From Cylindrospermum stagnale PCC 7417 (GTDB lineage: Bacteria; Cyanobacteriota; Cyanobacteriia; Cyanobacteriales; Nostocaceae), in NCBI RefSeq assembly GCF_000317535.1, contig NC_019757.1:2806501-2870500 (forward strand): a DNA stretch of 64,000 nucleotides, given 5' to 3'. Positions 2,848 to 17,792 of the stretch are shown here, piece after piece. Each line of letters starts with the position of its first letter. The stretch's first letter is position 1. Under the pieces are notes generated by a model. That model had not been told where the DNA came from. It saw nothing but the letters and a program-made list of their open reading frames with translations, and searched no databases. The position numbers and the translations under genes were made by a program.

Positions 2848-2876
2848 TAAATGCGATGATTGCCAACCGTAAAAAA

Positions 2877-3089
2877 TCAAGACGCTGACAAAACCTCTAG
2901 TCCCCATTGATCTAGCGATCGCACTAGCAATTGGTCTAAATTCGGGGGAGTGCTAACTTCTTTGATTACATCGATCATCAAATCTTTCGCAACTTTTGGA
3001 GTCTCTGGATATCTTACCAGAAATAAACCATCATCAGCCCACATAGAACGAATATCAGATAATCTTACCGCTGCACCTTCATGAATCAC
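2877..3089 (-). CDS. small protein of unknown function (70 aa)
   Basis: An acidic 70-residue ORF with a GTG start. It shows no signal peptide or membrane span, and I recognise no family. The composition looks genuinely coding (for example VRYPETPKVAKDLMIDVIKE and LLVRSLDQWGLEVL). It begins 13 bp after the stop of the 968-aa gene and no ribosome-binding site is obvious. The same frame stays open into the end of that gene, so it may be a separated C-terminal tail of the larger protein rather than an independent gene. It overlaps the longest possible start of the downstream permease. Confidence 0.5.
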   Translation of the reverse strand: MIHEGAAVRLSDIRSMWADDGLFLVRYPETPKVAKDLMIDVIKEVSTPPNLDQLLVRSLDQWGLEVLSAS

Positions 3090-3102
3090 TTTAAATAACT
3101 GG

Positions 3103-6009
3103 TTAAAATTGCGGCAATTTCGAGCTATCTTGCAGCATAATCATCGAGGTAGGAATAGTAATTTCCCAAGGTTCGCTGACATGCTTGGACTCGCGATCGC
3201 TCTGCGGTAAAATTTTCAAGTCATTCACAAGTGACACATATTTCTCATCAGTGGGAGTCAGTGCATTTGCCCCAGTCCAGATTGTCCCTGACGACAGATA
3301 ATATAAAACAAGCATGGCATAGTCAGGTCTTACTGGTACCAACACTCTAACTGCTCCTGCTTGCAAAAAGCTGGTGAATAGAGAGTCATTTCCTGAGTAA
3401 GGATTGAAAGCTGTAAAAGTGAATTCATCTTGATTTTCTCCTTCTTCCAATTGTGGATAGAAGTTATAGGTTATCTCATTCCACTCCAAAGACTGCTCAA
3501 AAAATTGGATATACCTTGGTTCATTGACAGCAAAGTTTGATGGTTGATTCTTTACGGAATTATCATCAGATGAACCCACAAGCTGAAAGTGCCGCTTGAT
3601 AATTTGTCTTGTGCAAGCTTTTTTAAGTTCATGCTTTTCGATTTGCCGATATTTAAGCGGGTTATGGGACTTGATTTCGGCTAGTCCTACTCCAGCCCTT
3701 TCATAATATTCTGCTTGCTGTTGACGATATCCTTCGAGAATAGCGTTATAAATGTTTATCTGCCATTCTGCAAATTTTTCAGGTGCGAGAGTACATGTAA
3801 CTTCAATGCTGACAGAATATTTTGCATCTGATTTATCTTTATCAGAATCACACAGCACAGAAGCCGCGATCGCAGTATCTTCTTGATTCATCCCTAATTT
3901 GCAAATATGACGGGGAGATGTAGTCAAGTCCAAAATTTGTATACCAATAAATCCTGTCAGTGCAGTGACACCAGAGAAAACACCAGCTACATCTGCTGAT
4001 GTAGCCCTATAGCCTTCAGGTATTTGAATTTTTTTGATACTATTAGGTTCTTTATCTTTAAATGCAGTCGGCACAATCTTCACTGCATCTGGTGGTGTTT
4101 GGATATCTTTGACTTGATACTTAATAGCCAAATCGGCGTAATTTTCCCTAGTGATGGCTTTATAACTATGCAGATTGAGCTTGTCTGGTGCAATTGGTTT
4201 GTCAAGCGATATACCTTGAAGATGAAGCAAACTATTAATGTATGAATCAGCCGGATTTTCCAACATGAACTCCAGCATCAATCGCTGACCATAATTGACC
4301 ACATGGGCTGTATAAATCTGGTTAACCCAGCGATAAATACCAATGACGTTGCTCGTACTATTTTTATTATCAAATGCATGGATTACAGTTTCTTGAGTCT
4401 CATCAAGAATGATAGTTCGTACTTGATTAACATATCTAGCAATGCCATATCTAGCAATGCGATTAGCTGTCCTTGTTGTGATATTCTTGGCAAATTTATT
4501 GACATCTTCTCTATAAGGCTGTGTTGAGTCGGGAGCATTAGAAATAGTCCAACCTCCTGTGACTTTAACAGTTGATGGTGTGATTCCATACTCTGTACTC
4601 AAGCTATTAAAGGTCGTTGTCACCGCATCTTTAGCCAGAGTTTTTTGTGTCTCATTCAATATATCTGCTCTAGTATCATCAATACCGTCTGCAATCTCTT
4701 CTAATTTTTCACTGCTGTTAGTTACAGATTGATTAACTCTGTTTAATTTTCTCTGGGTGGTTTCTTTGCGCTCACCTTTTAGAACATTTTCAATGTAAGC
4801 TACTTCTCCTAATTCATATCTCAACAGCCGTTGGCAAACCATTTGTAAGTCACCTATGGCATAAGGTTCGATCCATTCTGTAATTTTAGATTTGCCAGCA
4901 CTAGCAGATGGTAAGGGAAATATTTCTGTAGGTAATATAATCGTAGATATTGCTGTTTCTAAAATTACTACATTCTCAGTAATTGCACTTCCTGAGTGAC
5001 AATTTTTATCATGTTTAATAATTTTTTCAATCAGAACCAACATCACCAAAGTCTTGGTGAGTTCTTCCAGCAAATGTGGGCGATATTCAGAGATGATAGT
5101 CAAAGCAAAATAATTCTGCCATACCCTATCTTTTTCCTGGATATATTTTTGGCTCTGGATGTATTGTTTGAGATTACTCCAGTCTAATTTTAAAATAACC
5201 TCTAATTGCTGTTTCAGTTGTTTACAACTGAAACTTGTTTGGTGACGTAACCATGTATCAAGTAGCGCAAAATATTTTATATAACCATTAAGGTTGCTGT
5301 TACTGGGGATGAATTGCTCTGCAAACTGCTTCCCCTCGATAAAATTAATTGCCACCTGTCTCATTTGCAAACGGGCATTATTTTCAGATGCTTTCTTAAT
5401 TTCGACTAACTTTTTATATAGGGATTCAGACGGTGCATTTTCGCTGTCATACTCAATGAACCGTCTTTGTTGCACATCCGGACTAATTTCAGTCCAAGTA
5501 CGCATGTAAACGAAAGGAAAGAGATCTTGGTGTTCTCCACTGTTGACAAATACTGTTTCTGAGGCAGACTCAAATGCATCACATGATTCACTTGGTTCAG
5601 AAAAGAGGTATTGGCGTTCCCCACTGTTCACAAATACTACTTCTGAGGCAGACTCAAATGCATCATACGGTTCACTTGGCTCACTTGAAACAATAGACTT
5701 ATCTGGACCAGGCAAAATATCATACTTTACCGTTTTGAGATTGTCTTGAAGACCATATCTAATATCGATACCTAAGTAAAGTTTTCCTTTGGCTTCAATG
5801 AAGTTAAGTTTGCCTTTAGCAGAACTATCAAGATATTGAAGCTCGAACGAGCATTCTTTATTAATTTTGCTTAACTGACAGTACTGATGTGGGTGCTCAT
5901 TAACAAATAAATTGCAAATAATTGATTTTCCTTCTATTTCGCTAGAATTATAAATTGCCCACTTTATAAAAAAGGGAGAAAAATCTTCTAAATTCCAATC
6001 TGTATTCAT
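3103..6009 (-). CDS. large uncharacterised protein (968 aa)
   Basis: I do not recognise this family. The protein has no signal peptide or obvious membrane span. Residues about 108-165 contain a 28-residue tandem duplication (AFESASE.VFVNSGE twice), also visible in the DNA with an 84-bp period near 5540-5690. A Lys/Glu-rich coiled-coil-like stretch lies around 400-470. The central part (about 490-600) has the pattern IYRWVNQIYTAHVVNYGQRL then MLEFMLENPA, which has the look of a large structural or exported protein; this is an impression, not an assignment. It leads a block of small unknown genes on the same strand and has weak ribosome-binding potential at its ATG. Function remains open. Confidence 0.75.
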   Translation of the reverse strand: MNTDWNLEDFSPFFIKWAIYNSSEIEGKSIICNLFVNEHPHQYCQLSKINKECSFELQYLDSSAKGKLNFIEAKGKLYLGIDIRYGLQDNLKTVKYDILPGPDKSIVSSEPSEPYDAFESASEVVFVNSGERQYLFSEPSESCDAFESASETVFVNSGEHQDLFPFVYMRTWTEISPDVQQRRFIEYDSENAPSESLYKKLVEIKKASENNARLQMRQVAINFIEGKQFAEQFIPSNSNLNGYIKYFALLDTWLRHQTSFSCKQLKQQLEVILKLDWSNLKQYIQSQKYIQEKDRVWQNYFALTIISEYRPHLLEELTKTLVMLVLIEKIIKHDKNCHSGSAITENVVILETAISTIILPTEIFPLPSASAGKSKITEWIEPYAIGDLQMVCQRLLRYELGEVAYIENVLKGERKETTQRKLNRVNQSVTNSSEKLEEIADGIDDTRADILNETQKTLAKDAVTTTFNSLSTEYGITPSTVKVTGGWTISNAPDSTQPYREDVNKFAKNITTRTANRIARYGIARYVNQVRTIILDETQETVIHAFDNKNSTSNVIGIYRWVNQIYTAHVVNYGQRLMLEFMLENPADSYINSLLHLQGISLDKPIAPDKLNLHSYKAITRENYADLAIKYQVKDIQTPPDAVKIVPTAFKDKEPNSIKKIQIPEGYRATSADVAGVFSGVTALTGFIGIQILDLTTSPRHICKLGMNQEDTAIAASVLCDSDKDKSDAKYSVSIEVTCTLAPEKFAEWQINIYNAILEGYRQQQAEYYERAGVGLAEIKSHNPLKYRQIEKHELKKACTRQIIKRHFQLVGSSDDNSVKNQPSNFAVNEPRYIQFFEQSLEWNEITYNFYPQLEEGENQDEFTFTAFNPYSGNDSLFTSFLQAGAVRVLVPVRPDYAMLVLYYLSSGTIWTGANALTPTDEKYVSLVNDLKILPQSDRESKHVSEPWEITIPTSMIMLQDSSKLPQF

Positions 6010-6110
6010 AGCTAGCTTGTATTAATTAAATACTGAGGTTAATATCGCTGTAAATTTGATTATTTTATTTAACCAATCAAACATCTAGATATTGAGAAAA
6101 TCCCAATATT

Positions 6111-6508
6111 TAGATGCTTTTTAACTTAGCTTGATACTTTATTTCCTGTATTGCCAAGCATTCAGACTGTCCTTAAATTTAGCAGAAAGTTCACCGTACC
6201 TAAAATCTGCGTCTAGCCAAACATCACTCCCCACAGGATCAATATTTAATGTGACTGCACCCTTGGCAAAATATACATCGTTTTCCATGTCAAAACTGAA
6301 ACTAGTCGGGCAACCAGGCGAACCTAAAATTGTCCCAGGATATGTCTTCCCCTGTAGTTGTAAATTAACCGCTACTGCCTTGCCTAAGCCACCAGTATGT
6401 TCAGTCGTCCATGAGATAGACACGAGTTTGATGCCATTGTAATGCCAATGTCTTGTTCCCGCACTTCCAATCAGTTCAAAGCCAGATGTAGCCATTATCT
6501 TTTTCCTT
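6111..6508. repeat. 398-bp direct repeat, copy 1 (copy 2 at 6639-7036)
   Basis: Bases 6111-6508 and 6639-7036 match over 398 bp at a fixed offset of 528 bp. I found two differences: G/T at 6210 and C/T near 6370. The unit holds a whole 118-aa gene with its ribosome-binding site and a short 3' flank. The spacer (6509-6638) is unique. This is a recent duplication or is kept uniform by gene conversion. Confidence 0.92.
6139..6495 (-). CDS. uncharacterised beta-rich small protein, copy B (118 aa)
   Basis: A 118-residue protein of unrecognised family with no signal peptide. Alternating hydrophobic/polar residues and many Gly, Thr and Ser suggest an all-beta, Ig- or lectin-like fold. Aromatic residues are frequent (HWHYNGIKL, DVWLDADFRYG, NAWQYRK). 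A good ribosome-binding site (AAGGAAAAAG) precedes the ATG. It is almost identical to the product at 6667-7023, differing by Asp versus Glu in DVWL[D/E]ADF. It lies between its twin and the 968-aa gene on the same strand. Co-expression as parts of one system is plausible but inferred. Confidence 0.78.
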   Translation of the reverse strand: MATSGFELIGSAGTRHWHYNGIKLVSISWTTEHTGGLGKAVAVNLQLQGKTYPGTILGSPGCPTSFSFDMENDVYFAKGAVTLNIDPVGSDVWLDADFRYGELSAKFKDSLNAWQYRK

Positions 6509-6666
6509 GATTTTCAATTAGTTTGAGTTGTGCAGCAGATATTTATCTGCTCATATGCGATGGAATTGGGCGGCAATTTGGTTATTTCAGGTTTGCTGAT
6601 ATAGACATTAGAGATAGGTAAAACCCCAAATCTCTAGATAGATGCTTTTTAACTTAGCTTGATACT

Positions 6667-7023
6667 TTATTTCCTGTATTGCCAAGCATTCAGACTGTCC
6701 TTAAATTTAGCAGAAAGTTCACCGTACCTAAAATCTGCTTCTAGCCAAACATCACTCCCCACAGGATCAATATTTAATGTGACTGCACCCTTGGCAAAAT
6801 ATACATCGTTTTCCATGTCAAAACTGAAACTAGTCGGGCAACCAGGCGAACCTAAAATTGTCCCAGGATATGTCTTCCCCTGTAGTTGTAAATTAACTGC
6901 TACTGCCTTGCCTAAGCCACCAGTATGTTCAGTCGTCCATGAGATAGACACGAGTTTGATGCCATTGTAATGCCAATGTCTTGTTCCCGCACTTCCAATC
7001 AGTTCAAAGCCAGATGTAGCCAT
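6667..7023 (-). CDS. uncharacterised beta-rich small protein, copy A (118 aa)
   Basis: Twin of the 118-aa protein at 6139-6495, with one residue different (Glu for Asp in DVWLEADF). The DNA is as conserved at silent as at replacement sites, because the whole 398-bp unit is duplicated. It has the same AAGGAAAAAG ribosome-binding site and begins 18 bp after the stop of the 112-aa gene. No family was recognised; the beta-rich composition without export signal would fit a cytosolic binding protein, an immunity-type protein or a cargo protein, but none of these is demonstrated. Confidence 0.78.
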   Translation of the reverse strand: MATSGFELIGSAGTRHWHYNGIKLVSISWTTEHTGGLGKAVAVNLQLQGKTYPGTILGSPGCPTSFSFDMENDVYFAKGAVTLNIDPVGSDVWLEADFRYGELSAKFKDSLNAWQYRK

Positions 7024-7041
7024 TATCTTTTTCCTTAAGGT

Positions 7042-7380
7042 TTAATATTGAGTGAAAATTTCAGCAGCATCTTTGGGGGTAATACCAAACAATGTGCAAT
7101 GATTTGGTCCACCGCCGCCCACACCAGGACTTAGTATTACGTTTCCCCCCTTTTGACGGATTTTTTTTACGGTCGTTGCTCCTACGGGTCCTGCTGGAAT
7201 CGGCCCTCTCCATAGGGCTATAGTGGCAATATTTACGTTTTTTACCGCAGTAGTGCCTGAGCATTGAACCGATACATCGTTCAGTCGATTATTGATATCA
7301 AGAGTACCGCCATTAATGAAGTTATCCTGTGATATCCTTCCACCTCTAATGACGATGGCATTATCATCTGCTGTTGGCAT
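7042..7380 (-). CDS. uncharacterised small protein (112 aa)
   Basis: The open frame extends to 7506. The ATG at 7380 (MPTADDNAIVIRGG) is the better start, with an AAAGAGAG ribosome-binding site 4 bp upstream; the extra upstream residues look non-coding. The N-terminal half has beta-strand-like repeats (GGRISQDNFINGG.LDINN). The C-terminal half contains RGPIPAGPVGATTVKKIRQKG, a glycine run (GVGGGG) and ends TPKDAAEIFTQY. I recognise no family. It is the first gene of the run that continues with the two 118-aa twins and the 968-aa gene. Confidence 0.65.
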   Translation of the reverse strand: MPTADDNAIVIRGGRISQDNFINGGTLDINNRLNDVSVQCSGTTAVKNVNIATIALWRGPIPAGPVGATTVKKIRQKGGNVILSPGVGGGGPNHCTLFGITPKDAAEIFTQY

Positions 7381-7621
7381 CAAACTCTCTTTTGTTTGTT
7401 GTGTGTTGTTTTCTTGAATCCAATTTGCCCTTTTAACTCCTGAATCACAATCGCAGTTTAGGCTCTTAAGAACGAACTTAAGAATTTTTGCCCATATTTT
7501 CCCCAAAGTCTTAACCAGTAGGGATTTCTGGCAATTTAAACTGGAATGAAGGTCGCCGCTTATCTTCCTTAAAGTCTGATCAAATACTTTCGAAGTTCTA
7601 AGCGATGGCGCACAGGTTTAT

Positions 7622-10600
7622 CTACCCATAGTTTTTGCACAGCAGTTGCTTAATCCAATCGCCATTAAATACCAATTCGTAAATACGGTTATGAACTCTT
7701 AGATTTCCTTGTTGCTTGACCACCAAACCTGATAATAGTAATTCCTTTTCTTGTGGACTATCAACCGCAACAACCTCTCCTTGATGCCAAATTGCTTGAT
7801 ATAGCTTTAATATCTCAACAACATGAGACTCCATATTGACGAGGCGATCGCGTATAGTTTTTAAATGCTCAGGTTCGTCTTGAGTTTCCCAATTCTCAAT
7901 CACCTGTGTTTGGACTAAGTTATTTATCCAATCGGCTTCACTATCCTTGGGAATGTTTACTGATGAATTCCGGATAAGCTTACAAAGTTTTTGGGTTAGA
8001 AAAGGCTGTCCACCGGTCCAGGCTAACACTTCCTTAAGGACATTCTGAGCATTACCTACTCGTTCAGCTAGTCCTTGTAGTAACGGTTGGGCTTCATGCA
8101 ATTGAAAGCCACTCAGTTGAATAGCTTGACCAATGTTAAAAGGCGTTCGTTTTTTGTCTTGAATTAATTGAGAAGGATTAGCTACTCCCAAAAAAACAAA
8201 AGTGAGACGTTTATATTTTGGGATGTCAGCCCGTTTGTTATAAAAATTTCGTAGTAGTACAAAGAAGTCATCTATGTCAAAATTAAGATTGATAACACTG
8301 TCAATTTCGTCTATAAAAATAACAATATTATTTTGCCGAAGATTTTCTAATACTATTTGGTCTATAAAATTACTGAGACGTTGCACTGGGGATAAAAATT
8401 TATGCTCACGCCACCAAGTACTAATATTAACTTTATTTAAAAGATTTAAACTACTGCCTAATATATAAATGAAACCTGCATACCACTGTTCCATAGTCAG
8501 CTGCCGATTACCAATTTCTGAAATATCGATAGCTGCACAGGCAAAGCCCTCGGCTTGTAACCTTTTCATGATTTGCACTCGCAAGCTAGACTTGCCCATC
8601 TGCCGAGTATTGAAAATGTAACAAAACTCTCCCTGCTTCAAAGCCTTGTAAAGATGTCTATCTGCCTGACGTACCACATAAGTAGGTGCATCTATTGGTA
8701 AACTTCCCCCGACTTGATATTCATAAGTTAGGGTTTTTTCTGCGCTTCTTAATAAAGCGTTCTCAATCACTAATTCAGCTTGAGTTGCTTTGAGGATCTC
8801 TAAAGTTTGACTTAGCTCTTTGGTTCGCTCCTGAACTTTAGCTTCTAAGTTGCGGTTAGACTCAGCTAATTGGTCTGTTGCTTGCTGCAAAGCTGTATGT
8901 TTGAGGGCAAGTTCTTGGGTAAACTTAGCTCGCTCTGCTTCTGCCTGCTGACGCTGTGTAATATCTTGAAAAGCTGCGATCGCATAAATAATTTGACCTT
9001 TATTATCGAAAATGGGTGTTGCTAACACCTCCAAAGGAATAATTTTATTCCCTAGATGCAGTTCCATATCATCAATAACGATACTTTCGCCATTCAAAGC
9101 TCTGATAATTGGCTGCTTTTCAGTAGGATAATGCTTTTCTGTTCCCTGCACGTAAGCTTGGTATATTTCAGCTAATTGAGTATTTGTAGAGTTATCAACA
9201 ATCCCTTTGCCTAAAATTTTTCGTGCAGTTAGATTAGCATAGTAGGGTTGTCCTTTGTCATCGATCACAAATATACCTATTGGTACAGCTTCGAGAATCT
9301 GTGTTAACTTTTTTTCACTCTCTCGTAATGCTTCTTCTGCTTGTTGGCGCTCTTTAATTTCTTGCTTCAGATTTTCATAAAGTTGAGCATTCTTAATTGA
9401 AATTGCAGCTTGAGAAGATAAAATTTTCAAGACTTCTAATCTCTCTGCTGTGAAAGTACCAACAGCCAGATTATTTTCTAAATAAAGTAAACCAAAAAGC
9501 TCACCTTGGTGAATAATCGGTGTACACAATATAGACTTAGGTTGGTGGTCAATCACATACACATCTTTGGTAAATCTTCCCTCATGGGTTGCATCACATA
9601 AAATTACGTTCTCTCTAGTTCTGACGACATAGTTAATTAAAGAATTGGGTAACTGTTGGCTAGTTTCAACTAACACCGATTTACATAGCATTACCTCCGA
9701 AGTAGTATCTACAGCACCCTTAGCTGCAATAAATAGCTGTTTTTGCTGCTTTAAAATTAAAAAACCAGTTTGAGCGCCAGCATTTTCAATTACAATATTC
9801 ATTAACTTTTCTAGCAAATTATCTAAAATAATTTCACTAGCGAGAGTTTGAGAAGCTTTAATAATTGTTGTGGCATCTAATATTTGTGAATTACTGCTGG
9901 TAGTAGAAGAATAAGAAATATTATTTTTAGCTAATGTTGAATCCCTAGTCGAGTTAATAATTATTTCTGAATATTTTAATTCTAAATGTTTGACTTTAGC
10001 AATAGCTCCCCAGCAGATATAACTATAGTGTGCCTTAGTCATATAAGTTCGCGCAATTTCTTGCCGTCCTAAAGCTAAATAAAACTTTGCCGCTAATTCA
10101 TAAGCTAGTGCTTCATCTTGAATATATTCATTTTCTCTAGCTCCAGCTATAGCGCGCTCATATAGTTCCATAGCTGCAAGTATATTTCCCAACGCTCTAG
10201 CCTTTTCTGCCTCCACTAATTCGTATTTATGTTGATAATTCATAGGAGCATTTTCAGCCCAGTATTTCATAAATTCCTGATTTTCATCTACTTGCTTTAA
10301 GTAAATTTCTAATTCATCTATTCTTGATGATTTAGTAAATAGAAATTTACGAGAATACTCAGCAAGTAATGCTAAAGAATAAAATAAATTATTATATATA
10401 AATAATATTCCAGTTTGCTTGAAGAGACTGTAATTTGAGGCAAGCCTTACAAATTTCAAGCATTCTTCATATTCTTCAAAAAGATAACAAAGCCATGTTT
10501 TATAAGAATAAACATCAAATAATGATAACGTGCTATTATTTATAATTACAGAATTAACAAATTCCTCTTCATTTAAAATATCACCAGTTAATTGAATTTT

Positions 10601-13600
10601 AGCTACAGAGGGATTGATTAAATTCTCTACTGTCTGAGCGCATATTTTAATCAATCCTAGTTGATGTTGTTGTTCAAATTTGCCAACAAAATCTATATAA
10701 TCAGCTTGCATATTAGCAATAAAATCTAAATCTTTACCCACAAAAAAAATATGAGAACAATAAAAGCTAGCTGCATGACAAGCATACTCAATATCTCCAA
10801 CTTCTAAGCCACTTTCAATTGCTTCATGTATAGGATTTAGAGTTTCTTGAATGTGCTTTTTATAGTGAATAAAACTTATATACACTATCAAAATAACTTT
10901 AGCTTTAACTTGTTTATCATTTAATTGATCTATTAGTTTAAGAGCTAACTGACCCAGATGATAACTTAAATTAATATCTGCCATTGATGACGCTATGACC
11001 TGACCATAAACTACATAAGCATAAGTAGATAATGGGGAATTTCCGTATTGTCTAGAAAGCTCAACCATTGTGTACAAAATTGGTCTTGCTATAGTATTTT
11101 TTGCAAAACAAGCAGGAGGCCAAATAAGAATTAAAGTTTCCATTGCTGCTAGTTTATATTGATCAGTCATAAGCGGTAGGCTATATAACTGCTCAATATC
11201 AAGATTTTTTGGTGGCAATTCTACTAAAGAAACACCTAGCATTTCCAAAATATCCAGACCAATATCTAAAACTGTGTTAACTTGATTTCTAGCTAAATAA
11301 ATTTTTATTTTTAATTTTTGAAATTTTACTAAATCTAAAACATTACTAATTTCTTTTGTAACTAGTTTGCATAAAGATAATGCTTGTTCTAAATTAGAAT
11401 TTAGATATTCTGCTTCTGCTGTCTCTATATATAAATTCAAAGTCAATATATATTTATGTGTCCAACTCTGATAATTTAGTAATTGTAGACCTATGTTCAA
11501 GTATTTAACAGCAGCTTCGTAAGCTATAGCAGCTTTTGCTTTTTGACCAGCAATAAGATTAAATTGGGCTAACTCATCCTTTTCAACTTGGGTTGTTAGT
11601 AATTCAATGCCAAAATTTAATTGATTAGCTAAGACAAAAATATTATCTTTTTGAATTTCTGGTGTATTATTCCTGAGTAGGATTTGACCTATTTTCAAAT
11701 GAGTACTTTTTTTATTAGTTTCGGGAATCAAGGAGTAAGCTGCTTGTTGTACTCGGTCATGTAAAAACTTATAGTTAATTTTGACATTACTAGCTTTCAA
11801 AACGTCTGATTTTGTCTCACAAAATGCCAGAGGAATTTTGTAATTTGACGATAAAGGTAGAATTAGACCAGCTTGCAAAGCATTCCACAAATGAGTTGCT
11901 GTGATAATGTCTGAGGTTTCATTGACAGTTGCTAAAATTTCTAGGTTAAATTGGTTGCCCATACATGCTGCCAACTGTAAAATTTTCTGCGTTTCTGGTG
12001 GCAATTTACGAATATTCCTAGCAATTAATTCAACAATATTATAGTCAGTAATACCAACGGCTTGAATTTGCTGAATGTTCCAATTCCAGCTATCTGTACC
12101 TACCTGATAAATTAAGAGATTTTCGCTATATAAGCTTTTGAGTAACTGAGTTAAGAAAAATGGATTACCTTGGGTTTTATTAAAAACTAACTCTGCTAAT
12201 AACTCAACTTTTTTAATATCACTCGCACAAGATAGTGTATCTGCTAATAGTTGTTGAACATGAGTGAGTAACAAAGGTTCTACAGTGATGTTATGCACCA
12301 CAGTGTTTGTTTGACGTATTTTTTGTAGAGTTTGTATTAATCGATGAGTATGGTTAACTTCGTTATCTCGGTAAGCACCAATAAAGAATAAATATCGGCT
12401 ACTATTATCTGTAATCAACAATCTAATTAATTTCAAAGATGCAGAATCTGCCCATTGTAAATCATCTAAAAAAATGACCAATGGATGCTCAGGTTGACAA
12501 AAAACATTGACAAATTCTTGAAAAACACGGTTAAATCGATTTTCAGATTCAGCAGCACCTAGCTGGGGAACATCAGGCTGTAAGCCAATAATTAACTCTA
12601 CTTCTGGAATCACTTCAATCAGGATTTGAGCGTTAGAACCTAATACCTCTAGTAGTTTGTGTTTCCAAATCGTAATCTGCTTCTCATTTTCTGTTAATAG
12701 CTGACGAATCAATTCTTGGAAAGCTTGAGTTAAAGCAGCATAGGGAATGTCCCGCTTTAACTGGTCAAATTTACCTGTAATAAAATATCCTCTGGCGGCA
12801 ACCATTGGTTTGTGAACTTCATTGACAATTGAAGTTTTACCAATACCTGAATAACCAGAAACTAACATCATTTCTGTTGCTCCCTGGCTGACTCGCCAGA
12901 AAGCATCCATTAGTGTTGTAACTTCTTTTTCTCTACCATAAAGCTTTTGTGGTATTAAAAGTTGACTACCGCGATCGCGCCTGCCAGGGATAAAATCTAT
13001 AATCTCTCCGGTAGTTTGGATTTGTATTAGGCAAGTTTCTAAATCGAATTTAAGTCCACCTGCACTTTGATATCGTTCCTCAGCATTTTTAGCTAAAAGT
13101 TTCATCACAATATCTGAAACTGCTTTAGGAATCTGCTTGTGCAGGTAAGGTGGTACTGGTTGTTTGGCAATGTGACAGTGAATCAACTCTAGCGGATCGT
13201 GGGTAGGAAATGGCAGTGTTCCTGTCAACATTTCATACAAAGTCACTCCCAAAGAATAGAAATCAGTGCGATAATCAATCGAGCGATTCATCCTCCCTGT
13301 TTGCTCAGGTGCTATATAAGCTAAAGTCCCTTCTAATAAATTAGGATTACTGATAGTTTGTTTTTCTAAAAAAAGCCGTGATGACAGACCAAAATCAATT
13401 AATTTTACTTGTCCAGTTTCAATATTGATAATGATATTACTAGGCTTAATATCTTTATGAATAATTGCAGCTTGCTCTAAATCAATTAATGTTTCTGCAA
13501 GTGCGATCACTATTTGCAAACACTCTGAAATCGTTAATTGCCTAGATATGATAATTTGACTTAAAGCTTGTCCACCAAAATCTTCTAAAATCAGTGCAAA

Positions 13601-13834
13601 ACTATTCTGATATTTTTCTAATTTATAAAGTTTAACAACTCCATTACTCGTCAAATCTTTGAGAATTTTATACTCATGCCGTAAATTAGTAATTTTTTCT
13701 AATGTAGGATACTCACAGTTGAGCAGTTTAATAATTACTGGCTGCTGTTTCTGTTTTTTCTTGCCTCGATAAACAACTGTTCCTGTACCTTCATGAATTT
13801 TTTCTAAAATTTCATATCCTGGTATATTAATCAT
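7622..13834 (-). CDS. multidomain Ser/Thr kinase - STAND ATPase - GAF - PAS - AAA-like protein (2070 aa)
   Basis: A giant cytosolic signalling protein. Counting from a GTG at 13843: Ser/Thr kinase domain about 8-275 (HKD 129-131, DFG 150-152, APE 178-180); an AAA/STAND ATPase from about 300 with Walker [10 protein letters not shown] at 330-338 and Walker [13 protein letters not shown]; a long helical TPR-like region to about 1280; GAF at roughly 1330-1480; PAS at roughly 1515-1640; coiled coil; then a second AAA-like domain (AAA_35 type) from about 1710 with NTRQMGKSS and [11 protein letters not shown]. Cyanobacterial proteins with this front end normally finish with a histidine kinase; here the AAA-like domain takes that place. 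The ATG at 13834 ([10 protein letters not shown]) fits the family start better than the GTG. Confidence 0.93.
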
Positions 13835-13938
13835 AACTTGCACAATTCCTATTATCTTTACTAAAATAGAGATGTTTTGTAAGAACGTCTCTACTAGTTT
13901 TTAATAAAATTAAAGAGTTAGCCCCAATGAAAATGGAA

Positions 13939-16053
13939 TTAGCTACTAGGGTTTGAAGCTGATTCAAAATGAGGATAAATTTCTTCCTCAAATAAATCCT
14001 GAATATCAGGATGTTTTTGCGATGCTTGGTGTACTAATTCCTTGTAATCTTCGCGCACATTAATATAATAAGTAGCTTGACGTTTTCCAATATTTGGCAA
14101 CCAAGCAGTATGCAAGGTCAGAGCAAAATCAAGTGAAGGATGGGATAGTTGGCAGAGAGGCCCTTTAGACAAATGATTAGCATCAAAAACCCAGAATTCG
14201 TTTTTATCTTCATACCATACTGTGCAGATAATATAACCATCAGTTGGTTTTTTAGCATCGCGATGCGGCATAAACTGGGGAGAAAGTAGTATGTATCCTG
14301 ATGGTAATTGATAGCTGTCAACGATCGCAGCTGCTTCCGTTGATGAGGCATGGAGTCTAAACAAGTAAGCGGGTATTCCCTTGGCAGCCATACTCAATAC
14401 TTTTTCGATAGGAACTTGCCGATTTCTATAATGTTTATACTGATTGACAATAAATTCTGTCATTAAGTCTTTCCATAACCCAAAAGAACACCAGTATATG
14501 TCTTCCAGGCGCTCTAAGGTTTTTTTTGTCTGAGGATCTTGCTCTGGATAAGTATAGAGATCTACACCCCAGGTACGTTCAATATCAGAAATAATCTGTG
14601 ACTCCAGAATATCTCCCGTTTCTCCATTAATTACATAGCGTCCCATACGCCCAATATCGGCTTGACTTGGCTCCATACCATGAAGATATGAAGGCACAGG
14701 ATTTTCGGGATTGTAAGCAGAAACATCATAGTTTCCGATCCATTTAGATACCTCCATACCGCAGATATGAGATGTATTTAGTGTAATGTTTCCTTGGGGG
14801 TTGTCATAGTCTACTAAAAAATGCGCTGCTTCTAACGGCAACACAACTTTTTGGACGACTACTTCAACTTCCTGCTGATTAGATACTGGAAATTGTCCGG
14901 CTTTTAAGTCAGCACGACGCACAATATAAACTAAAGAATCTGGAGAAGTAGGCCGTTCTAATAAGTCTCTCAGTAGTCTTTCAACTTTTTTATCGTCTGG
15001 AAAAGGGTTATTGAGTATTTGTTCTAATCCTGTTGTGAAAGCTGTATCCATAATCACAACATAATCTCTCGTTACTCCAATCTGATGTATGGTTTGGTCA
15101 ATTGACACAGGTGAACCATCAGGTAAAACTAGCTTCCATCTTTCCAAGTCACCTGCACCATCCCAAGAAATTAAATAAACAAAGTTATCAATTTCTAAGT
15201 TAATTAGTTTCTCGATCAATTCGACGTAGAGTTGCACAAATCTTTGCAAAGAATGAGAGGCGAAATCAAAAATATCTTTGAGGAAATTTACTCGCAGAAA
15301 TGAGCTAAGTGCAGTTAAAAACTCATCTATTTCTTGGGGAAATTGCTCAAGGTCATAAATAAAAGGAATAGTGTCTAGAAAATTAAGTAATGATCTACCA
15401 TAGTTAACTGTAAATATCTGCTGTGTATGAGGATCAAAAACAGGATGAGCCGTACTCAAAAACGGTGGAAAAGGAGCATTATAACCATTTAACTCAGATT
15501 GCCATTCTTGATTAGTGCCAATAGGAGTAACAAGCTCTAGGGTTTCAGTATCAATCTCATAAGGACGGCCTGCATCATAAGTAACTAGTAACCGTTCTTG
15601 CGAATCTGAGGAAAACTTTATCGGTAGAAAAGCTGTATTCAGCTGGTTGCGAATACCCAAGGTTAGGGAAAATCTGGTGATGCCATGATTGCGAAAACGA
15701 TACTTCTTATACTTTGAGTTCTGACAGGTTGCTTTGTCAGCATAGTAATCAGGTGGTTTGACTATGCTTGTTGTCAATCTCACTTCATATGGGGAATTAA
15801 AATCCAACCGATAAATCATACCGTCCCCACACAATACAGAATCTCCATTGCGATAGGGAAGACCTCCAGAGTTAACAGTTCCTACGGAAGTAACCATGAA
15901 GACATGACCTTGCAAATCCTGGGGAAGATATCCAGAAACTTGCATTTGGATATCTTTGAGTTCACGTTGACTGGCTGTCATGATTGACTGTGGAACTCTA
16001 GGGTAATCTTGAAGATTTTGGATTTTAGTTGTCATAAAAGATTCTTCAGACAT
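13939..16053 (-). CDS. carotenoid oxygenase family protein (704 aa)
   Basis: A member of the RPE65/carotenoid cleavage dioxygenase family, non-haem iron enzymes that oxidatively cleave polyene or stilbene double bonds. The four iron-binding histidines appear in family contexts: TAHPVFDP (H203), IHQIGVTRDYVVIMD (H323), AAHFLVDYD (H411) and TLHTAWLPN (about H657). The N-terminus has the usual GDGMIYRLDF. At 704 residues it is about 200 longer than typical bacterial apocarotenoid cleavage enzymes; extra helical sequence lies at about 225-290 and 345-370. The substrate cannot be read from sequence. It sits between two genes for AAA-like ATPases, 38 bp from one of them, so co-transcription is likely. 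Confidence 0.9.
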   Translation of the reverse strand: MSEESFMTTKIQNLQDYPRVPQSIMTASQRELKDIQMQVSGYLPQDLQGHVFMVTSVGTVNSGGLPYRNGDSVLCGDGMIYRLDFNSPYEVRLTTSIVKPPDYYADKATCQNSKYKKYRFRNHGITRFSLTLGIRNQLNTAFLPIKFSSDSQERLLVTYDAGRPYEIDTETLELVTPIGTNQEWQSELNGYNAPFPPFLSTAHPVFDPHTQQIFTVNYGRSLLNFLDTIPFIYDLEQFPQEIDEFLTALSSFLRVNFLKDIFDFASHSLQRFVQLYVELIEKLINLEIDNFVYLISWDGAGDLERWKLVLPDGSPVSIDQTIHQIGVTRDYVVIMDTAFTTGLEQILNNPFPDDKKVERLLRDLLERPTSPDSLVYIVRRADLKAGQFPVSNQQEVEVVVQKVVLPLEAAHFLVDYDNPQGNITLNTSHICGMEVSKWIGNYDVSAYNPENPVPSYLHGMEPSQADIGRMGRYVINGETGDILESQIISDIERTWGVDLYTYPEQDPQTKKTLERLEDIYWCSFGLWKDLMTEFIVNQYKHYRNRQVPIEKVLSMAAKGIPAYLFRLHASSTEAAAIVDSYQLPSGYILLSPQFMPHRDAKKPTDGYIICTVWYEDKNEFWVFDANHLSKGPLCQLSHPSLDFALTLHTAWLPNIGKRQATYYINVREDYKELVHQASQKHPDIQDLFEEEIYPHFESASNPSS

Positions 16054-16091
16054 GGTAATTTACTCTCTTGATTTGATTAAGCAACGATTAC

Positions 16092-17432
16092 TTACTGGTT
16101 ATCTAGGCGATCGCCAAAATATTCGGCATACAACTTACAGCTAGGGGTAGCTTGATTACCGTATAAATGTACTAATCCCATGCTTTGCAACTTGAACGCT
16201 TGCTCTAGATGTAATTCCACAGGTCTAGATGCTTTGGCAACCTGTGCAAAGGCGGCTACTAATTCTGGATTTTGTTGGAGGTTCCACCATTGTTGTTGCA
16301 GGTGTTCACGGTAAATTCCATTTGAGCTTAGGGCAGTTGACAACAATTGCTCTAAACTGACACCTTGTTGCCATGAATAATAAAAAGCCAGTCTTACAAG
16401 ATAAGGTTGTCCACCAACCAAAGCAAACAGTTGTTCTACTGCTTGCTCTGAACAGTTCAAACTATAGAGATCTCCTAAAGCCTGTACTTGTTCCCGGTTT
16501 AGGCTTTTTAACTCAACTGGTAACCCCACATTAAAAGGTGACTTATTCACATTCAGGGGAATATAAACCTCTGTTGCGTGTGCCACAACTAACCGCAGTT
16601 TTTTCCAAATCTCTCGATTTTTGGCTTCCTCATGCCAAGCGCGTAACAACCCAAAAAAATCATCCGCCAAGTCAGGATATTGGAACAATATATCTACATC
16701 GTCTAGACCCAGGACAATAGGGCTGGTTGTTTTGGCTAAAAGATACTGCTCAAAGTAAATTTTAGAGCTAATTTTGCTGCCAAAAAGCTCATCCCAATAG
16801 TCTGTGAGTCGATTTTGCACCTGTAAACCCAGACTGATACTTGCACAAAACCAACGCAAGAATTTATCTAAGTCTTGAAAAATTGCTTTATCGGCTAGCT
16901 GGAAGCTTAAAGATACAGTGCGATAACCATCATTAGTTGCAGACTGAATAATTCTTGACATTAATGAAGTTTTCCCCATCCGTCTAGGGGCTTTGATCCG
17001 GATTAAAGCTCCTGGTTGCAAAATTGCTTTGTAACAATCGGTTTCAATAGGAGGACGTTCTAAATAAAATGCAGAATCTAGGGGTACTTGTCCTTCTGGT
17101 ATCTCTGGTGCTGTTTCTACTACGAGCAAGTTAGTACCTAAGACTTCATCCTGCTGTTGTGGTTCAGGAAGGAAATAATCACTCTGTTCCAGAACTAGAT
17201 TAAATGCTTGAAAACAGTACTTCAAGGTTTGCTTGTCCACTCCTAGTTCACAAGCAAATATTTTCGTCAGTGTATCCACAGACAAACATGTACGTTCGTT
17301 CAATGCTTCAAGAGTATACCGATTACCGGAGTTTTCCCCAATCTCTGCTTCAGACTTAGCTGTTTGAAGTTTCTTTAATCCTTGAGGTGTTAGCAGTACA
17401 CCCCGTCTGCGTCGGGTTTTCTGTAAGAACAT
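16092..17432 (-). CDS. AAA-like ATPase with N-terminal HTH-like domain (446 aa)
   Basis: The N-terminal 90 residues (GVLLTPQGLKKLQ, RYTLEALNERTCLSVDTLTKI, DKQTLKYCFQAFNL) match the helix-turn-helix-like module that precedes AAA-like or WD40 domains in many cyanobacterial proteins. An AAA_35-type ATPase domain follows, with Walker A APRRMGKTS near residue 150 and Walker B IVLGLDDVDILF near 215-225. The same ATPase type ends the 2070-aa kinase encoded 2.3 kb downstream. Such proteins are thought to act in signalling or biological conflict systems. There is no WD40 or other effector at the C-terminus, so this copy is short. It is first in the run leading to the carotenoid oxygenase. Confidence 0.85.
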   Translation of the reverse strand: MFLQKTRRRRGVLLTPQGLKKLQTAKSEAEIGENSGNRYTLEALNERTCLSVDTLTKIFACELGVDKQTLKYCFQAFNLVLEQSDYFLPEPQQQDEVLGTNLLVVETAPEIPEGQVPLDSAFYLERPPIETDCYKAILQPGALIRIKAPRRMGKTSLMSRIIQSATNDGYRTVSLSFQLADKAIFQDLDKFLRWFCASISLGLQVQNRLTDYWDELFGSKISSKIYFEQYLLAKTTSPIVLGLDDVDILFQYPDLADDFFGLLRAWHEEAKNREIWKKLRLVVAHATEVYIPLNVNKSPFNVGLPVELKSLNREQVQALGDLYSLNCSEQAVEQLFALVGGQPYLVRLAFYYSWQQGVSLEQLLSTALSSNGIYREHLQQQWWNLQQNPELVAAFAQVAKASRPVELHLEQAFKLQSMGLVHLYGNQATPSCKLYAEYFGDRLDNQ

Positions 17433-17792
17433 CTTTATTATTGAGACTGGGCAGCAAAATCAACAATAACTACAGATGCTGTTCAGTATTTTCCCGAATT
17501 CAGGACAGTTTTTCTGAAATTTAATTGTTTCTTAGTTTCGATGATCAGTCTAGTGCTCGAAAAGCCCATTGGGAATACCATGCGCCAAAATCAGCTTCTA
17601 ATCTGCTTTTCAAGTACCTCTGTTCTGGATGAACCTAAAAGCGATCGCAATTGACCGTGATTACTAGCCCCAATAACGTCGTCGGAAACCCTGATTCTTT
17701 CGTCAACTTTCAAAAGTTTTCGATCTACTGACTTTTATCTACCTTGCTATGATCCGTATTATGGTTAGGCGACTTGCTTAAATTTTGACTCC
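17433..17792. other. 360-bp intergenic region between importer ATPase and AAA-like gene
   Basis: No ORF of credible composition is present. It contains one HIP1 site (GCGATCGC near 17641) and AT-rich stretches that could hold the promoter for the AAA-like ATPase gene reading leftward. It marks the right-hand junction of the block that separates the importer ATPase from its permeases. I see no clear inverted terminal repeats or target-site duplication here. Confidence 0.5.

Follow-up and report, generated by a model that had tools for sequence, protein, structure and literature searches.

A widespread unnamed protein family with exchangeable downstream partners, and a probably incomplete copy in Cylindrospermum stagnale PCC 7417

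We analyzed a 64,000-nucleotide stretch of DNA from Cylindrospermum stagnale PCC 7417 (NC_019757.1, positions 2,806,501 to 2,870,500 of the forward strand; hereafter the window) and, within it, a block at 2877..7380 whose minus strand carries open reading frames (ORFs) of 112, 118, 118, 968, and 70 amino acids (aa) between 2.9 and 7.4 kb. The 968-aa protein and its relatives, for which we use the working name FAM, match no family in the libraries searched and occur in 15 phylum-level groups beside exchangeable, often toxin-like genes (labels beginning with L or G denote the loci and genomes of this analysis). We tentatively read FAM as the conserved part of effector-carrying systems with exchangeable partners, a reading that is plausible rather than probable, and the copy in the window as probably incomplete. 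An earlier sequence-only reading had proposed that the block, with its five same-strand genes, is a candidate for an undescribed system (a conflict system, secreted complex, or stress structure). The idea of a conflict-type system is supported for the 968-aa protein, to which the twin 118-aa proteins are probably linked. The 968-, 118-, 118-, and 112-aa ORFs stand as genes of the block, but the 70-aa ORF is what is left of a CARF-HEPN gene and not an intact gene. The block as a whole is not one system: the 70-aa remnant lies outside it, and the 112-aa protein is at most a putative member.

Distribution and phylogeny of FAM

The absence of a nameable family, already remarked in the sequence-only reading, was confirmed for the proteins tried in each library. 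Pfam gave no match for the 968-, 112-, and 70-aa proteins and one row below the cut-off for each 118-aa twin. For FAM, one twin, the 112-aa protein, and the 70-aa protein, NCBIfam returned no match and PHROGs nothing better than an E value of 0.006 (a helical stretch). PADLOC had no match for FAM, a twin, or the 112-aa protein, and none for FAM in three family members tried. Searches of PDB sequences yielded zero matches for FAM and weak rows for a twin and the 112-aa protein (E value of 0.09 or worse), while a profile of 65 FAM rows retrieved chance rows only (E value of 1.9 or worse). At the level of titles and abstract openings, the PubMed Central literature held no description of the family that we could find.

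In its own order, FAM was present in 3 of 291 genomes, including that of the window. It was located by tblastn in 13 plasmid records, one of them archaeal, and a scan of genome contigs produced at least 506 confirmed relatives, with 79 loci retained (77 from Bacteria and 2 from Archaea, spread over the 15 phylum-level groups). Viral contigs were the source of three FAM loci, and FAM was absent from 50,697 phage records searched by tblastn; a phage or prophage module was rejected on these two counts. The region conserved across the family comprises the last ~600 residues (residues ~365 to 968 of the protein in the window). In loci L031, L050, L071, L072, L073, L081, and L083, FAM is present as two adjacent ORFs, with the break roughly near residue 380.

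Two trees were computed, one of 65 core sequences without the plasmid loci and one of 69 rows, to which L005, L008, L010, and L016 had been added. In the 65-row tree, a branch with a support of 99 separates 52 rows from 13, the latter being the window, ten rows in which a gene at position +1 to +3 clustered as collar, L018, and L025. The 69-row tree likewise contains a branch with a support of 99, with the window and 14 collar loci on one side and 54 other rows on the other; L010, L040, and L075 have very long branches in this tree. The window's FAM groups most closely with two cyanobacterial rows, L014 and L012 (support of 99), and its identity to L014 is 67% over 580 core columns. On the 65-row tree, partner classes change 23 times, and patatin alone accounts for 8 changes, at least 7 of which are forced by starred branches. 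The phylum changes 27 times on the same tree, which suggests much horizontal transfer.

Genes beside FAM

The neighborhoods of 90 distinct loci outside the window were examined. The ORF picker missed FAM in eight of them (L004, L007, L016, L026, L047, L061, L078, and L087), and neighbor counts therefore rest on the remaining 82 loci, or on 83 when the window is included. L012 and L014 duplicate the loci L002 and L003, and each duplicated locus entered these counts a single time. A downstream gene of at least 100 aa was found in 80 of the 82 loci and lay on the same strand as FAM in 75 of the 80. The gap between FAM and this gene had a median of 23 bp and was 100 bp or less in 60 of 75 cases; the upstream neighbor was on FAM's strand in 48 of 77. 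Since in most members a same-strand gene follows FAM immediately, FAM and its partner probably form one operon, the partner being a separate downstream ORF and not the C-terminal end of FAM.

Of 130 proteins encoded up to the fourth gene downstream, 111 were run against Pfam, as were 73 of 92 upstream proteins plus one stray ORF; the tallies refer to the 25 commonest families (25 of 61 downstream and 25 of 148 in the controls). Among the families listed for the 111 downstream proteins were patatin (17), Collar (11), Tox-MPTase4 (3), PT-TG (2), and FGE-sulfatase (2). Single cases were proteins of the arginine deiminase, muramidase, amidase, and L-lysine oxidase types, and in L084 FAM is followed by an ADP-ribosyltransferase. 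In 111 control genes located at least six genes away, there was no patatin or collar among the families listed with two or more matches; because the controls were likewise listed for the 25 commonest families, one patatin could be hidden there (at most 1 in 111). Upstream, the families listed included patatin (4), M15/VanY peptidase (4), and HopA1 (2). Clustering of the neighbors gave a patatin cluster in 14 loci (12 genes at +1), a collar cluster in 12 loci (10 at +1), and a family of ~360 aa (cluster c7) in 7 loci, 6 at +1, from several phyla (L089, 11806-12885, and six others). Pfam had no match for the representative of cluster c7, and we regard this family as a candidate effector.

A crude test for a Sec-like start was positive for 0 of 83 FAM proteins and for 4 of the 75 proteins encoded by the next gene, compared to 58 of 367 other genes. 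The corresponding crude transmembrane test was positive for 14 of 83, 23 of 75, and 110 of 367, respectively. The same type of scan detected no Sec-like start in the five proteins of the block (the 112-aa protein being scanned as its 154-aa ORF), in agreement with the earlier remark that the small ones lack export signals.

The branch that includes the window

All 14 distinct loci of the window's branch other than the window itself carry a collar gene (PF07484) directly after FAM, as determined by tblastn (L002, L003, L010, L013, L015 to L019, L022, L025, L035, L040, and L075). The sole collar gene outside this branch is in L081, ~9 kb from its FAM. Loci of the branch often have small proteins upstream of FAM as well. 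One of these, type A (~205 aa), was found in 10 distinct loci by tblastn and additionally in L075 by profile; in L002 it constitutes the N terminus of FAM, and L012, a longer piece of that contig, also contains it as a free protein. The other, type B, is free in L013 and L035, makes up the N-terminal domain in most of the branch's FAM proteins, and in L013 is fused to an Stv domain in one protein (E value of 2.6e-13). Type A was also seen on three plasmid records (L165, L166, and L167, from Calothrix, Photobacterium, and Burkholderia, respectively). Two of these three records carry more than one type A copy.

The 118-aa twins of the window, whose near identity had been noticed from the sequence, are probably related to type B. 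Comparison of a twin with the type B profile by hhalign gave a score of 27.2 (P value of 2.2e-4) versus 19.7 for the best of 200 shuffles and 11.6 for the 112-aa protein. With the window's own row removed from the profile, the score was 26.9 and the best shuffle 18.9. The type B alignment contains 13 other sequences picked by eye, and its fit to its own profile is by construction. With moderate confidence, we take the twins to be stand-alone versions of the domain at FAM's N terminus. Before the profile test, a plain hidden Markov model had given the twins E values of only 0.033 to 0.049, with the next rows at 0.057 and 0.06; the view of the twins as unrelated lectin-like proteins was set aside after the hhalign comparison. 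By plain sequence search at an E value of 0.001, the twins were found in 1 of 291 genomes of the order, the window's own. Weak matches to the 118-aa protein in 22 other cyanobacterial genomes out of 386 (E values of 0.0006 to 0.01, 17 to 21 bits) were discarded as chance, since all but one of the 22 fall within open frames of at least 350 aa. The sequence-only reading had held that a lack of co-occurrence in other genomes would speak against a system; the 118-aa gene indeed did not recur elsewhere in the order by plain search, in contrast to the 968-aa gene, which recurs with linked partners.

A missing collar gene in the window

No collar gene follows FAM in the window. Over the last 23 bases before the changed final codon, FAM is identical base for base to L012, after which the sequence preceding the 70-aa remnant begins; past the same point, L012 continues with four more codons and then the collar gene. 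The window's FAM is shorter at its end by four residues than those of L002 and L003. When the other 290 genomes of the order were searched, the 70-aa ORF matched 22, in 20 cases within open frames of 514 to 607 aa, and it aligned with the C-terminal end of the four full-length relatives examined (L158, L159, L161, and L162). For L158, PADLOC reported CARF1--CARF_HEPN (E value of 4.7e-231) and Csx1/Csm6 (5.8e-41). Of such a protein, just the ~70 residues at the end are left in the window, without the pair of CARF and HEPN domains. The 70-aa ORF, which corresponds to the C-terminal end of longer relatives, is thus what remains of a CARF-HEPN gene of the Csx1/Csm6 type that has been lost. On the simplest reading of this junction, a deletion removed the collar gene together with the 5' part of the CARF-HEPN gene, and the window's copy of FAM is probably incomplete. 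Because the collar partner present in the 14 other loci of the branch is missing, the window's copy may be nonfunctional.

Domain organization of FAM

The predicted domains of FAM are listed in Table 1. The repeat that the sequence-only reading had recognized in the 968-aa protein consists of units at residues 109 to 136 and 137 to 164, in a linker where the predicted local distance difference test score (pLDDT) is below 50 at residues 89 to 157. AlphaFold2 predicts helices at residues 445 to 464 and 499 to 523. Between these helices lies the hairpin candidate, in which Gly is present in 61 of 63 sequences and the first strand alternates hydrophobic and polar residues.

Table 1. Positions of the features of the block within the window
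Feature	Position	Strand	Basis
Insertion of ~14.9 kb between importer ATPase and permease-1 genes	2869..17792	not applicable	Comparison with congeners
70-aa ORF, 3' remnant of CARF-HEPN gene, outside the system	2877..3089	-	Relatives and PADLOC
Junction where homology to L012 stops at FAM's last codons; collar gene missing	3100..3110	-	Comparison with L012
FAM, conserved core of unnamed family, 968 aa	3103..6009	-	ORF, relatives, alignments, no library family
FAM residues 743-968, C-terminal domain, helical and alpha/beta, conserved	3106..3783	-	Alignments and AlphaFold2
FAM residues 641-742, jelly-roll beta-sandwich	3784..4089	-	Structure search
FAM residues 555-584, very conserved, predicted strand of ~30 residues	4258..4347	-	AlphaFold2 and conservation
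FAM residues 463-490, beta-hairpin candidate with conserved Gly turn (residue 475)	4540..4623	-	Alternation and alignment
FAM residues 379-409, very conserved, predicted strand of ~31 residues	4783..4875	-	AlphaFold2 and conservation
FAM residues 177-353, helical domain; separate ORF in some relatives	4951..5481	-	AlphaFold2; split N and C parts
FAM residues 109-164, tandem 28-residue repeat in mostly low-confidence linker	5518..5685	-	Sequence repeat; AlphaFold2
FAM residues 12-88, N-terminal all-beta domain (type B)	5746..5976	-	AlphaFold2 strands E15-22..E76-87
118-aa twin 1, probable stand-alone type B copy	6139..6495	-	hhalign
118-aa twin 2, arisen with twin 1 by tandem duplication	6667..7023	-	355/357 bases identical, offset 528 bp
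112-aa protein, where some relatives have candidate effectors	7042..7380	-	ATG inside 154-aa ORF

Comparison with known systems

Polymorphic toxin systems (PMC3482391) combine a conserved part with exchangeable toxin modules. FAM is similar in having Tox-MPTase4, PT-TG, and ADP-ribosyltransferase among its partners, which would be its cargo, and in the varied toxin-type cassettes beside a conserved protein, with at least 7 forced changes for patatin. It differs in that its variable part is a separate gene 3' of FAM, whereas in polymorphic toxins the toxin forms the C terminus of a single polypeptide. In binary (A-B) pore toxins and beta-pore-forming proteins, a conserved nonenzymatic partner stands beside a separate enzyme. 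FAM would also be nonenzymatic, with the hairpin candidate between its two long predicted strands and a separate enzyme next to it; unlike these toxins, it has no PDB sequence match, no fold match outside the jelly roll among those listed, and no Sec-like start in the searches made, and its partners belong to many enzyme classes. Exchangeable cargo is also known from extracellular contractile injection systems (eCIS), and the Photobacterium locus L010 has eCIS_core and an AAA gene nearby. However, an eCIS_core-like motif (a motif, not a profile, sought up to ~10 kb on each side) was present in 1 of 83 FAM loci, and FAM as a general eCIS part was rejected on this basis. Phage tail collar proteins share their domain with the partner gene of the window's branch, but FAM itself is absent from the phage records, and two members of the branch gave no PHROG match better than an E value of 0.006. 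No named family fits FAM; by analogy, it resembles the carrier part conserved in polymorphic or binary toxin systems, with the toxin encoded separately and with no kinship in sequence or fold to such carriers in the searches made.

Proposed function and alternatives

If FAM is the conserved part of effector-carrying systems, it would assemble without a Sec signal into an oligomer, in which the two long strands and the insert of helix, beta-hairpin, and helix would make a channel or shaft, that is, the part in the membrane or tunnel. FAM would then carry or pass its partner into another cell. In the window's branch, the collar partner would probably be the receptor-binding tip, and the N-terminal domains, free or (in one locus) fused, may dock cargo. 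A bolder version, which we consider doubtful, is that FAM represents an undescribed class of delivery machine in Bacteria and Archaea, in which a single conserved protein of ~600 residues builds a translocation particle free of secretion signals and loaded with exchangeable enzymes, the window's branch having a collar tip and detachable N-terminal docking domains. Several observations weigh against a role in effector delivery. Most of the downstream proteins scanned have no toxin-type domain, so that the label of effector rests on a recognizable minority; ordinary enzymes (PPK2, thiolase, and phosphoribosylglycinamide synthetase) also occur downstream of FAM, and FGE-sulfatase is equally frequent in the controls (2 of 111 each). 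The reading offers no explanation for export, and the window's FAM is one of the 14 proteins positive in the crude transmembrane test. Among the fold matches listed for FAM, in effect the jelly roll alone was aligned. The hairpin candidate lies in a stretch of low pLDDT with no strands in the AlphaFold2 model, and other stretches nearby score higher in a sliding moment test. The AlphaFold2 model of a twin is poor (pLDDT of 54.8), and its strand pattern is no independent proof because the alignment used included related domains. Type A stands without FAM within 8 kb on the three plasmid records mentioned above. Finally, a Pfam search of the whole genome of the window found no Collar domain.

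The main rival to effector delivery is an intracellular conflict or defense module, in which a cytosolic FAM would act as scaffold or sensor and activate the linked effector, harming its own cell or an invader; for the collar branch, the rival is an adhesive complex. We consider the intracellular module improbable. The rarity of Sec-like starts in FAM and its partners (a crude test) would fit it, as would the broad, patchy spread with its 27 phylum changes, and patatins are known defense effectors. However, PADLOC recognized FAM in none of the three members tried, and the single downstream muramidase and amidase and the four upstream M15/VanY peptidases would need cell wall targets, which, like the receptor binding indicated by the collar branch, do not sit easily with a cytosolic role. 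A secreted adhesion or surface fiber made of FAM, the small beta proteins, and a collar tip, with no toxin carried, seems to us equally improbable. It would account for the collar gene in 14 of 14 branch loci outside the window, for the jelly roll in FAM, and for the tandem small proteins of beta-rich appearance. Yet the larger branch (52 of 65 rows) has no adjoining collar gene while recurrently carrying toxin-type enzymes, and within the collar branch itself, a Peptidase_C58-like gene (L003) and the Stv fusion (L013) lie beside FAM.

Apart from what the family does elsewhere, the locus in the window may be a decaying, functionless fragment, which would be compatible with any of these roles; we consider this possible, though less likely than not. 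The collar gene is neither beside FAM nor elsewhere in the genome, the remnant of a lost gene abuts FAM, and FAM lacks the four terminal residues present in L002 and L003. Decay is opposed by the full open frame of FAM, with its identity to L014 across the core, and by the twins, which are still open frames. The importance of the reading for the window itself is small, since the copy there appears incomplete. If FAM were a common toxin carrier, one unnamed protein would tie together hundreds of orphan loci across many phyla, many of them with partners that have no assigned function. New toxin families could then be predicted purely from gene position, and FAM with its partner would offer a two-gene system open to direct testing. 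Effector carriage would also account for the presence together of collar genes and small beta proteins away from phages.

The 112-aa protein, the host operon, and other observations

Of the order's 291 genomes, 24 contain the family of the 112-aa protein, with relatives of about 108 to 125 aa in the 23 other than the window's own. None of those 23 contains FAM, and the window's genome alone has both. Among the loci listed (L127 to L140), 12 of 13 outside the window have a partner of 86 to 108 aa after the 112-aa relative; no such partner was seen in the window. Pfam had no match in one example pair of a 112-aa relative and its partner, and the two may form a toxin/partner pair. At the position occupied by the 112-aa protein, L003 has a Peptidase_C58-like protein (E value of 3.9e-6) and L002 a weak Stv match (0.008); that the 112-aa protein is itself an effector is a guess from this placement.

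The block is wedged into an importer operon, as the sequence-only reading had stated. In the congeners G094 and G586, the genes for the binding protein, ATPase, permease 1, and permease 2 of this importer, which we take to be of the nucleoside type, are contiguous, with about 50 and 190 bp between the ATPase and permease-1 matches, compared to 14.9 kb in the window. Two more distant relatives have a looser operon, with ~1.1 kb between ATPase and permease 1 in G587 and, in G588, no ATPase in the ~11 kb retrieved upstream of permease 1. In congeners, conservation of permease 1 itself sets in near residue 14 to 20, and that of its leader reaches to about 2868, which makes 2847 the likely start, with no overlap with the block. 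In addition to the block, the insertion contains a 2073-aa kinase, an RPE65-type oxygenase, and an AAA_35 ATPase. The first of these (7622-13843) is a kinase-AAA_16-GAF-PAS protein and the last a separate protein of 446 aa (16092-17432), with AAA_35 common to both. The sequence-only reading had pointed to these two neighbors of the block, but they were rejected as partners of the system since kinase, AAA_16, GAF, PAS, and AAA_35 are ordinary Pfam domains; the PADLOC matches of the giant kinase look generic.

Elsewhere in the window's genome (G000), eCIS_core (DUF4157) matches were found at 16 places, several of them in large frames and none at this locus; the closest to FAM is more than 100 kb away. 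At 74-130 of the window, a tandem repeat of ~10 bp (tgcacataac) lies upstream of a gene that is presumably uracil phosphoribosyltransferase-like.

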